From the NCBI RefSeq assembly GCF_009754915.1, contig NZ_WPIK01000008.1:124001-188000 (forward strand): DNA of 64,000 nt, written 5' to 3'. The notes beneath the pieces are model-generated. The model did not search any database and had not been told where the DNA came from. It worked only from the letters and a program-made list of their open reading frames with translations. Positions within the stretch are counted from its first letter, which is position 1; every line of letters starts with the position of its first letter. This document shows positions 8,586 to 15,992 of the stretch, in pieces. Source of the DNA: Mucilaginibacter arboris. GTDB taxonomy: Bacteria > Bacteroidota > Bacteroidia > Sphingobacteriales > Sphingobacteriaceae. Made by a program: the position numbers and the translations under genes.

Positions 8586-9458
8586 ATGATCTCGATAGAA
8601 AACGAATTTTTAACTGTATCTTTTCGTACCAAAGGGGCAGAAATGACCTCTTTTTTTAACAAAAAAACCAAGACCGAGCATTTATGGCAGGCTAATCCTG
8701 ATGTTTGGCCTTGGTATGCACCTAATTTATTTCCAATTGTTGGAGGGTTGTTTAACAATGAACTGCATGTAAACGGACAAACTTACCACATGACACGCCA
8801 TGGATTTACCAGAGAATCAGAATTTAAACTGGTTGACATTACGGAAACCCATGCAAAATTTTCACTGCCTTTTAGCGAAGCCACTTTAGCTGCTTATCCT
8901 TATCGTTTTGAATTTCAGGTGTTGTATGATTTGTTTGACCAGGATTTACGCGTTACTTACAAAGTAATTAATCAGGATGAGCAAACTGTTTATTTTTCTA
9001 TGGGTGCGCACCCTGCTTTTCATATTCCGTTTAAAGAGGATGAAAAATATGAAGATTATTACCTGGAGTTTGAAACATCACAACCTTTATTAACGCACCT
9101 GCTTTCGGCAAACGGATTAATGAGCGGCGAACGAGAAGTTGTCCCGACAGAAGATCAAAAACTTTGGCTAACTAAACATTTATTTGATCGTGATGCACTG
9201 GTTTTTAAAAGTATCACTTCCAAAAAAGTAACTATCCGAAGTAAAAACCATGAACATAGCTTGTTAATTAGCTTTGATAATTTTAAGGACCTGGGTATTT
9301 GGGCAAAGCCGGGCGCCCCCTTTGTTTGTATAGAACCGTGGTTAGGTTATTCGGATACGGAAGGAGAAGTTAATGATATTCAGCAAAAAGCAGGTATCGA
9401 AAGCGTAGGGCACGGGCATGTTTACGAAGCTACGTTTACCATCTCTGTTAACAGTTAA
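8586..9458 (+). CDS. Aldose 1-epimerase family protein
   Basis: The 290-residue galactose-mutarotase-fold protein has no signal peptide. Visible family blocks are the N-terminal ISIENEFLTVSF, the PNLFPIVGGL segment, MTRHGFTRESEF (general acid His region), MGAHPAFHIPF near residue 140, and CIEPWLGYSD near residue 245. Such enzymes interconvert sugar anomers; this branch (LacX/YeaD-like) often acts on phosphorylated or unusual sugars, so the substrate is open. It ends at a paired-repeat terminator and is convergent with the MBL hydrolase gene. Confidence 0.88.
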   Translation: MISIENEFLTVSFRTKGAEMTSFFNKKTKTEHLWQANPDVWPWYAPNLFPIVGGLFNNELHVNGQTYHMTRHGFTRESEFKLVDITETHAKFSLPFSEATLAAYPYRFEFQVLYDLFDQDLRVTYKVINQDEQTVYFSMGAHPAFHIPFKEDEKYEDYYLEFETSQPLLTHLLSANGLMSGEREVVPTEDQKLWLTKHLFDRDALVFKSITSKKVTIRSKNHEHSLLISFDNFKDLGIWAKPGAPFVCIEPWLGYSDTEGEVNDIQQKAGIESVGHGHVYEATFTISVNS

Positions 9459-9476
9459 ACACTTATTTTAATCGAT

Positions 9477-9512
9477 AAAAGAAGCATTCCTCTAAATTTA
9501 AATGCTTCTTTT
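9477..9512. terminator. Inverted pair of core repeats acting as bidirectional terminator
   Basis: A + oriented core (9477-9487) and a - oriented core (9502-9512) face each other across 14 bases. With flanking bases the arms CGATAAAAGAAGCAT and ATGCTTCTTTTACCG can pair, and a T-run follows. The pair lies exactly between two convergent genes. This is the same use that Haemophilus and Neisseria make of paired uptake sequences. Confidence 0.8.
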
Positions 9513-9528
9513 ACCGATGTTTTTTGGA

Positions 9529-10488
9529 CTACTTTTTATAAACTCCCACCACAACTGCAAATGCAATTAATGCAGCAGCGCCAATTAAACTTGCGGTAAT
9601 TACAGGATTATTTACAGCAGGCGGAACATATTTTACACCTTCTATATCGCTTTGTGCAGGTTCTTTTACATAGCGTCCATGTGCAGGAACAGCTTCTTCA
9701 GCAAAATTACGGCCTAAATGCTGTAAAGCATGCTTAAATTCTTTTCCAAACATTGGTTTACCGTGTCCGGTTGCTACAATTTGCGGATGCAGGCCGATTA
9801 ATTTCCGTACAGATACACCAGCTGCTTTCCAGTCGCTGGTAAAATATTTTGGCGGGCCGGAAATAATTTTTTTCTGCGTCATAACTGATATTGCTGATTC
9901 TTGTACCGTAGTTACAAAAGCATCACCGGCAATTAAAACATGATCGCTTTCGCGGAACAAAGAAATATGGCCCGGCGCATGGCCAGGTGTATGTACAATC
10001 CGCCAGCCTGGTAGTCCGGGCGTTCCTTCTTCCGGAAAAGCATGAACTTTATCACGTAAATTAAGGGGTTTATTAGGGAACAACCACGAAGTTAAACTCA
10101 TTAAACCACCACCAACAAATGGGTCTGCAGGTGGATAAGCAGAAAGGCCGGTTAAATAAGGAAGTTCAAGATAATGCGCATAGACAGGTACATCCCAGAT
10201 TTTCAACAGATCCTGTAAACTGCCCCTATGGTCGAAATGGCCGTGCGTTAAAATAATGTTTTCTGGTTTTGTTCCCGTTCCGAATAATTCTTCGGCCATT
10301 TCTTTTATTTTATTTGCAGAATGCGGCAAACCGGCATCTACCAATACCCATTTTTTACTATCAGGGCTGCCAGAGGCAATCATGTAAATGTTTACAAATA
10401 CAATTTTCATTCCCCAAACACCCGGGGCAACTTCAAAATAGCTGCTGCTTGTGTTTTTATTCTGATTGTTTACCTGTGTTTCGTCCAT
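9529..10488 (-). CDS. MBL-fold metallo-hydrolase with C-terminal membrane anchor
   Basis: The 319-residue protein has the metallo-beta-lactamase HxHxDH motif in LTHGHFDHRGSL near residue 100, VHTPGHAPGHISL near 167, LIAGDAFV near 190 and ATGHGKPM near 240. There is no signal peptide. A single hydrophobic helix at the C-terminus (IGAAALIAFAVVVGVY) ends in a Lys pair, so it is probably tail-anchored. MBL-fold members hydrolyse lactones, thioesters, glyoxalase-type substrates or phosphodiesters; the substrate cannot be told here. It is convergent with the aldose epimerase gene. Confidence 0.88.
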   Translation of the reverse strand: MDETQVNNQNKNTSSSYFEVAPGVWGMKIVFVNIYMIASGSPDSKKWVLVDAGLPHSANKIKEMAEELFGTGTKPENIILTHGHFDHRGSLQDLLKIWDVPVYAHYLELPYLTGLSAYPPADPFVGGGLMSLTSWLFPNKPLNLRDKVHAFPEEGTPGLPGWRIVHTPGHAPGHISLFRESDHVLIAGDAFVTTVQESAISVMTQKKIISGPPKYFTSDWKAAGVSVRKLIGLHPQIVATGHGKPMFGKEFKHALQHLGRNFAEEAVPAHGRYVKEPAQSDIEGVKYVPPAVNNPVITASLIGAAALIAFAVVVGVYKK

Positions 10489-11822: not shown

Positions 11823-13943
11823 TTAATTGTTAAAGTTAGACTGAAGTTGGAAGGATTTGTTACGTTTTAAAATTTTTATTTTTCGTCCGTCCGATGCTGC
11901 ATCTTCTGTTAAATTTTTAATCTGGTAATCAGAGTTGCTGCCATCGATAATTAACAAGTCAAAAATAATATTTCCGGAAATCTGCGCTAAGTTTAAACGA
12001 GGGTTTCCGGTTATATACACTTCATCTACTTTTATTTTTTGTGGCAGCGTTTTGTTTTCAAATTTTTTATCCGCCACAAAAATTAAACGGTTTCCAAATT
12101 GTATTAAATTATTTTGCCTGCTAAAAACAGCATTCCTAAAGTTTTGCCCAGTTTGTAAAAGTTTAACCTGAACGCACTTACAACTATCTAAATAAGGTTG
12201 TACTGAGTATTGAAAGGTCTTGTCGGCCGGTTTTAAATCTGTTATCACCACAGCTTCATTGCCTTTTTTAAATATTAAGCCCGAATTTTTACGGAGGTTT
12301 AAAAAAACCATTTCATCCTGATTTGCGGCCTGATAGCGCTTATATGAAATACCTGCTAAAAAAAGTATGGTAAAAACAGCACCGGCTTTTAACCAAAGAG
12401 AATTGCGGTGGACCAGACAGGCGAAACCGGAGCAAATAATGGCATACAAAAGCAAATATTGGGGAACGGTGATCCAAAGTTTGTTCCAGTTGCCAAAAGG
12501 GATATTTTCTATCCGTGTTAAACCTTCGTTCATTAAAATAATGGTTTTTTCGAGTAAAAAGGCTATTAGTTTTGAAATATTAAAAACATCAGGAATTAAC
12601 AGAAATGCAATTCCAAAATACATAATCAGCATAGAAGGCAGCACAATAAAAAGGTTACTGATGAGGAAATAAACCGGAAACTGATGGAAATAAAAAATGC
12701 TAACCGGAAAAGTAATGAGTTGTGCCGCTAAAGAAACAGAGATCAACGACCAAAGCTTTTGAGCAATAAAATGTTTAAAATGAAACCAGTCTTCTATTAT
12801 CGGCTGTAAAATAATCAAACCAAAAACAGCTAAATAAGAAAGCTGAAAACCAACATCAGTAAGATAGAAAGGATTGTAAAGCAGCAGCATAAAAGCCGAA
12901 ACCAGCAAAATATTAAGCATGCTGATATGGCGGTTATAGGTTTTCCCGGCGATAACAAACGTAATCATTACGGCAGCACGGCAAACGGCAGGCGAAAAAC
13001 CGGTGATTAAAGCATATACCCAAATCAGCAGAACAGAGATCAGCGCTTTTAGTAAAACAGTGCTTCTTTTACGGTTTAAAAAACTTAGCAGCATGTTTAG
13101 AATGATGTAAACCAAAGCAACGTGCATGCCCGAAACGGAAAGCACGTGCATGGTCCCGGTTTTAGCATAAGCTTGCAAAACGTCCTGACTTAAATCTGCA
13201 CGATAACCCAAAATTAAAGTGGAAGCAACCGCAATAGCATCCGGATTGTGCAGGTATTTCTTCAGTTTTAAAACTAGGTTTTTTCTGATTTTAAGTGCGT
13301 AAGCAATTATTGGATTGTCACGATTAGTAGTTAGTAATTGGTACTCGTTTGGGTTGATAAAAGTCTGAAAGTAAATGTTTTGATGTTGAAGCCACAACTT
13401 GTAATTAAATTCTGCGGGATTAAAAGGTGCATCAACAGGTTTAAAATTACTGTTGATAAGCAGTTCATCACCATAATTTAAATTGACAGGTTGATTTGGA
13501 TCAATCTTTAAAGCAATTAGTAAACTTCCGCAAGCCGGAATAATTTTGCCATTAAAAGAAGTATGCGTAACAGAAGAATTAAAGTGGACAAGGTTTCCGG
13601 TTTGTTTAGGTTCCTGGATAATGCGGATGAGCAACGCATTAGATTTTTGTTTTGAAAAATGGTTTTGCTGGTTAATTTCTTTATTTCGCTCTGCAAATAA
13701 AATTCCTGCTAACAGCAATAAAATATGGACAAGAATTCCGCCAATCCAGGGTTTGCGGTAAATTTTTAATCGGGCATAACCAAAATTTAAAGTAGCAAAA
13801 AGCAAAGCAATTGCATAAATGCTGATGGTTAAGCAAAAAAACCAACTATCGAACGGAAAAATCACGCCTAAAAAAATACCCGATAAAAGAGGCATCAGCA
13901 GTTGTAAAAATGGGTTTTCGGGCATAAAAAAAGCGTTTTTCAT
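11823..13943 (-). CDS. comEC: ComEC/Rec2 inner-membrane DNA uptake channel
   Basis: ComEC carries single-stranded DNA across the inner membrane during natural transformation. The 706-residue protein has two or three N-terminal membrane segments, the DUF4131/OB-like region, and then the competence domain. Visible hallmarks are MHVLSVSGMHVALVYIILNM near residue 267 and ALITGFSPAVCRAAVM near 315, followed by about seven membrane helices. The C-terminal MBL-like part is short and lacks an HxHxDH motif, as in many Bacteroidota, so any nuclease step would need another protein. It starts three bases after the HhH/beta-barrel gene ends, in one operon. A core repeat at 13554-13564 is read HTSFNG. Confidence 0.93.
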   Translation of the reverse strand: MKNAFFMPENPFLQLLMPLLSGIFLGVIFPFDSWFFCLTISIYAIALLFATLNFGYARLKIYRKPWIGGILVHILLLLAGILFAERNKEINQQNHFSKQKSNALLIRIIQEPKQTGNLVHFNSSVTHTSFNGKIIPACGSLLIALKIDPNQPVNLNYGDELLINSNFKPVDAPFNPAEFNYKLWLQHQNIYFQTFINPNEYQLLTTNRDNPIIAYALKIRKNLVLKLKKYLHNPDAIAVASTLILGYRADLSQDVLQAYAKTGTMHVLSVSGMHVALVYIILNMLLSFLNRKRSTVLLKALISVLLIWVYALITGFSPAVCRAAVMITFVIAGKTYNRHISMLNILLVSAFMLLLYNPFYLTDVGFQLSYLAVFGLIILQPIIEDWFHFKHFIAQKLWSLISVSLAAQLITFPVSIFYFHQFPVYFLISNLFIVLPSMLIMYFGIAFLLIPDVFNISKLIAFLLEKTIILMNEGLTRIENIPFGNWNKLWITVPQYLLLYAIICSGFACLVHRNSLWLKAGAVFTILFLAGISYKRYQAANQDEMVFLNLRKNSGLIFKKGNEAVVITDLKPADKTFQYSVQPYLDSCKCVQVKLLQTGQNFRNAVFSRQNNLIQFGNRLIFVADKKFENKTLPQKIKVDEVYITGNPRLNLAQISGNIIFDLLIIDGSNSDYQIKNLTEDAASDGRKIKILKRNKSFQLQSNFNN

Positions 13944-13946
13944 CTT

Positions 13947-15992
13947 TTAAAACCGATAGCGTACTTGTATCCTGGCCTCAGATTTCTTGTTGCCTTCAAT
14001 TACATCCAAACCAGAACCAACTGTTTTTTCTCCCCGGTACAAATAAGCGCTGTACCTAAACCAAACATCGATTGCTTTTTTGAAATTATACTGCGCATTA
14101 AAGTAGGTGCGAAAGCCGGTATGCTGCAAGGGCAAAACCGTGTAACTGTACAAAACATCGTTCTCAAAAGAGTAAACCCGGGAATCGTAACTGGCTGTAT
14201 GAAACCAGGCCAAACGGCAATTGCCCGAAACCCTGCTGCTTTTAGGTTTATAAATTACATCCTGATAAGCCATAAAACCATATTCTGCTGCTGGTGCACC
14301 TTTTTGGTATTTTACAAGTTCTGCACGGTTTCTAAACGTGATATTTCTGGTAAAAGGATACGAAATATCCAGGTGCCAATCCTGGTAATTAACTTCATCC
14401 AAAGCTTTAATTTTTGCATTGTCGTTGTTTTGTTGCTTCTGTTTTAAGCGGTAATTGAGATAAGCAGACAGGCGGTTAGTTGGCGAGAAAGTTAATCTTC
14501 CTAAAAATTCATGTCCATAACTATTGGGTTGGCCCACCTGATATTTTAACCAGGGAAAACGGAAGAAATCAGCATAACCGGAAAAATTCCAGTAGTGTAA
14601 AAACTTCAGGTTTAAACCACTGTAAACACCTTTTTCATTTACCCCTTCTGTTGCTTCGGAAATGGCCTGATTGTAGAGCGAATGATAATTACGGCTGTAA
14701 TTCCGGTAGAGCAAGACCACCGAAACCGTTGAAGACAAGGAGGTTAATAAACCATTTACAGTGGCAGCGCCGCCTCCCAAACCTTTAGCTGTTTCTCCGA
14801 AGAAATATAAATTATGGTAGCTGTAATCATAATAGAACGAAAGGTTATCTAATTCCTTTCCGGCGAACTGGAACTCGTTATAAGTGTTTCGTTTACGCTG
14901 CACCGGAAATTGAAAATTGGTATTGTAAGCTGTTGCACCTGCTTTAAAATTTCGGTTAGTATAGTTGAGGTTTAAGCCATAAGTTAATTGTTCTGCTGCA
15001 TTTTTGTTAACTAATTCTGTGGGTGTGCGATGATAACCGGTTGTTCCGATAGAAGAAATATATTCAGGGTTTGCCGTGCTTTGAACGGTTGCATCAATTG
15101 GCTGATCTGAAACAAAAGGTGTAAATTCTACAGCTTTCCATTTAAACGTTGCTGCAACACCGCGGAAATAACTGACTTCATTGGTAGAAGAATAAGGCGT
15201 TAAACCGCGGCTAACTTTAGGCACCAAAGTAGCATCTGCATTTTTGCCAAATGCAAAACCGGTATATAAACCTAAACCCTGGCCAAACTGCAAAGAATAA
15301 TCACCAATAACCAGGCGGTTTACAAAACCAAAATTTTTAAAAGAAAGGCTGGCCGAATAAAAATCAAAACCCATACTGTTTTTACCGGCAAAAAATGGTT
15401 CTCCCGCATCTTTTTCCATATTTAAAGCAAGTTGGATGCGGTTTTGAAAATTAAATTTATAACGTCCTAAAAGTTTCTGTGCATTTCCGGTATAATGCGA
15501 AAGCTTAGAATCTTTTGGAATGAGAAAACCTTTTTGGGCTTGTAATACTTGTCCATATCGAAAGATGAAATCTTGTTTGCCGTAACGAAAAACGTTTGTA
15601 AGGTTAACAGCATTAAAATCAAAATCCGGACTGATTGTTACAAAAGGCAATAGTTTTTGAATGGTTTGCAGGTCGAAAAGATTGATACTTTGAAGTTCGA
15701 GCAGGTTAATTAGTTTCCCGTTAGTATGGATATGTTCCTGCAAAGCCGTGATTTGCAGGACAGACAGAAACAAAAGGTCTTGCAGTTGTGTGGTAGTTGC
15801 TTTGTTAAGGTTAAGCGGGTGCAGGCGATAATTATTAAGCTGGCCAATCAATTCAGAATAGTCGTAATCGTCCGGCAGGTTTTCGGCAGCAGCTTCAATA
15901 ATGGTTTCTATTTCGCGCTCATAAGAACTTTGGCCAAAAGCAGTTTTTGCAATACTTAGAAAGAAAAAAAGCAGTAAAAATTTGTACTGCAT
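13947..15992 (-). CDS. Secreted helix-hairpin-helix / putative outer-membrane beta-barrel protein
   Basis: I chose ATG 15992 (MQYKFLLLFFF); a TTG lies one codon upstream. The 681-residue protein has a signal peptide ending near AFGQ. Then comes a ComEA-like helix-hairpin-helix region, LNLNKATTTQLQDLLFLSVLQ and LINLLELQSINLFDLQTIQKL, at roughly residues 58-115. The rest consists of alternating aromatic strands (LQLALNMEKDAGEPFF, FRYSAYLYRG) ending in RIQVRYRF with a terminal Phe, the outer-membrane barrel signature. HhH motifs bind DNA non-specifically. With comEC three bases downstream, a role in DNA capture at the outer membrane is a reasonable inference but untested. Confidence 0.75.
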   Translation of the reverse strand: MQYKFLLLFFFLSIAKTAFGQSSYEREIETIIEAAAENLPDDYDYSELIGQLNNYRLHPLNLNKATTTQLQDLLFLSVLQITALQEHIHTNGKLINLLELQSINLFDLQTIQKLLPFVTISPDFDFNAVNLTNVFRYGKQDFIFRYGQVLQAQKGFLIPKDSKLSHYTGNAQKLLGRYKFNFQNRIQLALNMEKDAGEPFFAGKNSMGFDFYSASLSFKNFGFVNRLVIGDYSLQFGQGLGLYTGFAFGKNADATLVPKVSRGLTPYSSTNEVSYFRGVAATFKWKAVEFTPFVSDQPIDATVQSTANPEYISSIGTTGYHRTPTELVNKNAAEQLTYGLNLNYTNRNFKAGATAYNTNFQFPVQRKRNTYNEFQFAGKELDNLSFYYDYSYHNLYFFGETAKGLGGGAATVNGLLTSLSSTVSVVLLYRNYSRNYHSLYNQAISEATEGVNEKGVYSGLNLKFLHYWNFSGYADFFRFPWLKYQVGQPNSYGHEFLGRLTFSPTNRLSAYLNYRLKQKQQNNDNAKIKALDEVNYQDWHLDISYPFTRNITFRNRAELVKYQKGAPAAEYGFMAYQDVIYKPKSSRVSGNCRLAWFHTASYDSRVYSFENDVLYSYTVLPLQHTGFRTYFNAQYNFKKAIDVWFRYSAYLYRGEKTVGSGLDVIEGNKKSEARIQVRYRF

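Follow-up and report, generated by a model that had tools for sequence, protein, structure and literature searches.

Two copies of an abundant uptake-type motif face each other between two convergent genes in the window (the whole stretch of 64,000 nucleotides of Mucilaginibacter arboris DNA that was analysed), and we consider it probable that the two copies form a two-way transcription terminator and that the motif itself marks self-DNA for sequence-preferring uptake. The motif is a more important finding than the pair and is a strong candidate for an uptake signal in Bacteroidota.

The facing pair between two convergent genes

The 12-mer AAAAGAAGCATT was found at 9477-9488 on the plus strand and its reverse complement, AATGCTTCTTTT, at 9501-9512, an exact match in which the two cores face each other. 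The spacer measures 12 nt between the facing 12-mers and 14 nt between the 11-mers AAAAGAAGCAT, and the inverted repeat around the cores reaches 9471-9518, with 17 of 18 pairs complementary. The genes on both sides are convergent and the gap between them is 70 bp, leaving 17 bp from stop to core on the epimerase side and 15 bp on the hydrolase side. A preliminary description of this DNA had reported two exact facing cores with a 14-base spacer in a 70-base convergent gap, and this was confirmed, the 14 nt being the distance between the 11-mers. The features of the region are as follows.

8586 to 9458, plus strand: aldose 1-epimerase-like gene (PF01263, E 2.8e-23), ending 17 bp before the left core
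9463 to 9468, plus strand: AT tract belonging to the left copy, roughly one helical turn upstream of its core (positions -14 to -9, all A/T; fits the extended consensus)
9471 to 9518, no strand: the whole inverted repeat, a predicted bidirectional intrinsic terminator (17/18 complementary; folding energies below)
9476 to 9487, plus strand: left motif copy with core TAAAAGAAGCAT (exact match; the same core in the same place in two sister species)
9489 to 9500, no strand: 12-nt spacer, the loop of the hairpin (fully diverged among three species, arms exact)
9502 to 9513, minus strand: right motif copy, whose core reads TAAAAGAAGCAT on the minus strand and ATGCTTCTTTTA on the plus strand (exact match; conserved in sister species)
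9520 to 9525, minus strand: AT tract of the right copy, TTTTTT on the plus strand (sequence compared with the consensus)
9529 to 10488, minus strand: metallo-beta-lactamase-fold hydrolase gene (PF00753, E 5.7e-34), ending 15 bp beyond the right core

The facing arrangement of the cores is not due to chance; with a gap of 4-26 nt, exact facing pairs of the 12-mer occur six times in the genome, versus none for the reversed pattern. When folded as RNA, the pair yielded -17.8 kcal/mol on the plus strand and -23.3 kcal/mol on the minus strand (z -7.0 and -7.6, respectively), and 0 of 200 shuffles folded as well as the hairpin of the pair. UUUU closes the stem, and a run of six U comes 7 nt later on the plus strand. 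The stem is GC-poor, and a pair of this build, with just three G-C pairs in the stem core and a loop of 12 nt, was not listed by a standard terminator consensus scan. No other strong hairpin was evident in the 70-bp gap.

The pair is kept in the same convergent gap in two sister species, G002 and G027, where the orthologous pairs fold too, and across the three species the arms are exact and the spacers unrelated. Four further facing pairs had an alignable interval in G027, and three of them were kept there with nearly equal gaps (17/17, 9/10 and 1/1). In the fourth, at C1:116897, both arms changed together in G027, from GAAGC..GCTTC to AAAGC..GCTTT, a change by which the core was lost and the hairpin kept. 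Arm covariation was not decisive as proof of selection on the hairpin, since the arms of diverging and tandem pairs match too.

Of the features of intrinsic terminators, the pair shows a stable hairpin and a place just after stop codons; of the typical GC-rich stem, short loop and following U run it has the U run, but with a GC-poor stem and a 12-nt loop. Judged on its sequence, the facing pair at 9471-9518 is most likely a bidirectional intrinsic terminator, a reading that its anatomy, its position and its conservation across species support. A transcript from either convergent gene would form a hairpin whose 3' side is rich in U, and RNA polymerase coming from the epimerase gene (plus) or the hydrolase gene (minus) would meet this hairpin 10-17 nt past the stop codon and terminate. 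One element would insulate both convergent genes.

Abundance, origin and spread of the motif

The core 10-mer AAAAGAAGCA occurs 30 times in the window, versus 0.24 copies expected from base composition. Over the 4.16-Mb genome, TAAAAGAAGCAT has 965+982 = 1,947 copies, versus 0+1 for the reversed pattern. Aligned copies gave the extended consensus aATTTTTnnGgtGATAAAAGAAGCATc, which can be written out as WWTTTTTW-nn-GGT-GRT-AAAA(GA or AC)AG(C or T)AT, where the AT tract precedes the core by about one helical turn and the core takes four common (accepted) forms, AAAA(GA or AC)AG(C or T)AT. Counted together as TAAAA(GA or AC)AG(C or T)A, the four cores number 1,152 in 1.24 Mb, or about 930 per Mb, with a density of 881 per Mb in a later 320-kb sample and an extrapolated genome total of about 3,800. 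Positions 5-6 of AAAAGAAGCAT behave as a coupled dinucleotide, GA or AC; single-step intermediates are rare, and the proportions vary between species (own genome and G027).

About a third of the AAAAGAAGCA copies lie within genes, on both strands, as judged with a simple hexamer-based gene caller. In coding copies the AT tract persists at positions -14 to -9, with the codons deciding between A and T. No replication-strand bias of the motif was found along the contigs. An origin in a protein motif or in codons (Lys-Glu-Ala) was rejected; the copies occur in both orientations and in several frames, and intergenic copies carry the same flank.

Judging from alignment with orthologues, coding copies arose by substitution, not insertion, because gaps at these copies were in no significant excess (3/95 versus a background of 1.1% in a sister species, and 4/36 versus 11.1% in another genus). 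As accepted cores, 78 of the 97 coding copies are kept in G027, versus 11% identity for random 11-mers in the same genes and codon phase, and intergenic arrangements of the motif are also conserved there. Exact 12-mers number 2,114 and 1,118 in two sister species. Only chance numbers were found in 198 genomes of 24 other Sphingobacteriaceae genera and in genomes sampled from about 57 further families of the class; among the genomes compared, the motif is confined to one genus (three genomes). The genomes are probably all assembled from metagenomes. No comparable k-mer that could be a dialect was seen in 20-kb samples from other genera of the family. The largest motif-free stretch, 12 kb at 148235-160389 of contig C12 in G000, has a GC content of 35%, carries a type III restriction-modification system, an AAA ATPase and a phage-type integrase, and is likely an acquired island, though the lengths of motif-to-motif gaps are, as a whole, near random.

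In most computable respects the motif matches the uptake sequences USS and DUS, and from this match we infer a function in DNA uptake. The motif is strongly over-represented (about 1 per kb), it lies within and between genes in both orientations without replication-strand bias, its coding copies go back to point substitutions and not to mobile elements (two genomes compared), and it is a lineage-specific dialect (three genomes, one genus only). Its role would most likely be to mark self-DNA for an uptake system that prefers certain sequences. Such biased uptake, with recombination, would fill the genome with motif copies, and copies that came to face each other by chance behind genes would be retained as a terminator.

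Facing pairs along the genome and rival explanations

The analysis read about 1.56 Mb of the 4.16-Mb genome in stretches and counted the remainder by pattern alone. Facing pairs are a small minority (36 in 1.56 Mb), and their gaps pile up at 15-18 bp (17/36, p = 6e-7). When the gap is at most 30 bp, 19 of 28 facing pairs (68%) have a facing stop codon no more than 50 bp away, versus 16% for random intergenic positions, 29% for diverging pairs near 70 bp and 50% for lone intergenic copies; compared with lone copies, the excess falls short of significance (p = 0.11). The claim of the preliminary description that the inverted pair is a terminator stands in part: the hairpin, its position and conservation, the preferred gaps and the nearness to stops support it, but lone copies are also near stops. 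The expectation that facing pairs would exceed other spacings in a genome search fared similarly; they do show the peak at 15-18 bp and lie near stops, but diverging pairs match them in number when gaps of at most 40 bp are counted (33 versus 31 facing).

Facing pairs are not the general terminator of this organism, because 7 of 76 short convergent gaps have one. The commonest close arrangement is that of diverging pairs near 70 bp, mostly because these lie within a repeat element. Lone copies were rejected as half-terminators, as they show no orientation bias near stops (60 versus 51). Close pairs have preferred gaps of 6, about 20 and about 34 bp when diverging, about 44 bp in tandem and 16-17 bp when facing, and several of these values recur in G027 and in the later 320-kb sample.

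The facing pair could be an uptake-type motif that was duplicated in permissive intergenic space, its hairpin being a by-product and the genes ending elsewhere or being read through. We regard this as rather unlikely. Lone intergenic copies that are, within error, as near to stops as facing pairs speak for a by-product, as do the equal frequency of short-range diverging pairs and the poverty of the stem in G-C pairs. However, the preference of facing gaps for 15-18 bp, the retention of the pair at its locus in three species despite a diverged spacer, the joint change of both arms at C1:116897 and the 70-bp gap in which no second strong hairpin is evident argue against it and leave the terminator as the preferred reading of the pair.

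Two other explanations concern the motif itself. An origin in a mobile repeat (REP/REPIN or MITE), with lone copies as insertion relics and the facing pair as one arrangement, appears most improbable to us. It is true that the diverging pairs of about 70 bp are related members of a repeat family, with 67 of 88 falling into one cluster, and that one diverging pair is an insertion whose orthologous site in G027 is empty, but coding copies align with their orthologues without an insertion, their AT tract follows codon need in its choice of A or T, and copies hold fixed places across species. As the source of all copies, a mobile repeat was rejected for coding and facing copies (the gap test largely refuted it for lone and facing ones), and it stands for the diverging pairs of about 70 bp only. 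One of these 88 pairs is found at 74505-74790 of contig C1 in G000, and the pair with the empty orthologous site is a MITE-like insertion of about 165 bp with inverted ends GGGCCTGTTTAA that holds two motif copies. A role of the motif in chromosome maintenance (as Chi, KOPS, or a site for a nucleoid or segregation protein) or as a self-mark for restriction or defence is unlikely, too; under such a role, facing pairs may still terminate. Its density, genus restriction and conservation would also fit a genus-specific DNA-binding protein, but polarity of the Chi or KOPS type was rejected because no strand bias was seen along the contigs, a bipartite motif of about 25 bp that includes an AT tract does not resemble sites for restriction or defence, and depletion in the integrase island fits uptake.

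Uptake machinery and comparison with known systems

Under the preferred reading, an uptake signal, two neighbouring genes of the window are of interest.

11823 to 13943, minus strand: comEC, the inner-membrane DNA channel of natural transformation (PF03772, E 1.4e-54), 2.3 kb from the facing pair
13947 to 15992, minus strand: a 681-aa gene directly next to comEC that matches no Pfam or NCBIfam family

comEC was found in the window and in 8 of 8 genomes tested. No type II/IV secretion ATPase (PF00437, T2SSE) scored above cut-off in the genus, and a pilus-type uptake receptor is therefore unlikely; the uptake machine of the genus is unlikely to be of the Haemophilus/Neisseria type. The 681-aa gene adjoins comEC also in sister species (78-81% identity) and in another genus (42%). 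Judged by eye, its product may be an outer-membrane barrel whose start resembles a helix-hairpin-helix, and the protein is a candidate for the outer-membrane DNA uptake protein. A search for a Riemerella-type DUF5689 receptor found none in the genus; in a relative, the single hit that was inspected adjoins a SusD-like gene and is uninformative. A protein of about 715-770 aa with one strong HHH_3 match occurs in eight other genomes of the family and is missing from G000, G002 and G027.

On balance, we favour the view that this genus of the Sphingobacteriaceae evolved a true DNA uptake signal independently of the Pasteurellaceae and Neisseriaceae, with a bipartite motif, a receptor that is not of the type IV pilus and facing copies co-opted as terminators. 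In the literature searched, uptake sequences are established in two proteobacterial families only, where the known or predicted receptors are parts of the type IV pilus; an established uptake sequence in Bacteroidota was not found in that literature, in which most subscription papers and preprints were not covered. If the view is true, the marking of self-DNA has evolved more than once, using different machines, and a testable prediction follows about the receptor for DNA in the outer membrane of Bacteroidota. In the facing pair, the same secondary use as a terminator would have arisen again, so that both the self-DNA mark and its second use would have evolved convergently.

The preliminary description had likened the pair to the inverted uptake sequences of Haemophilus and Neisseria, and the likeness holds insofar as the cores belong to a dispersed motif resembling uptake sequences, but the host is a member of the Sphingobacteriaceae and the analogy runs across phyla. 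As in the USS of Pasteurellaceae (Hin type AAGTGCGGT, Apl type ACAAGCGGT), there is about one copy per kb, the core is short and lineage-specific with an AT-rich flank about one helical turn away, and copies lie on both strands, within and between genes, without strand bias (PMC1626085). Unlike in the USS, the core is unrelated, only one AT tract is clear and it lies on the opposite side of the core, the host belongs to Bacteroidota, no type IV pilus ATPase scored above cut-off in the genus, and uptake is deduced here from sequence. The motif shares with the DUS of Neisseriaceae its thousands of copies and lineage dialects, and close inverted pairs of DUS after genes have been read as rho-independent terminators (PMC2397512, PMC3630211). 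In contrast to the DUS, which lack an AT flank, the motif here has one, its facing copies usually stand 15-18 bp apart and make up a small minority, and the phylum is different.

Within Bacteroidota, natural transformation of the distantly related Riemerella (Flavobacteriaceae) relies on ComEC, DprA and ComF together with further unknown proteins, and R. columbina shows a preference for its own DNA, in which no clear uptake motif is evident (PMC8459023, PMC7965970). The present genus resembles Riemerella as a Bacteroidota host with comEC. The candidate uptake k-mers of Riemerella are of low complexity and weakly enriched (AAAAATAAAA, 301 versus 56 expected), whereas the motif described here stands at 1,947 copies versus 1 for the reversed control.
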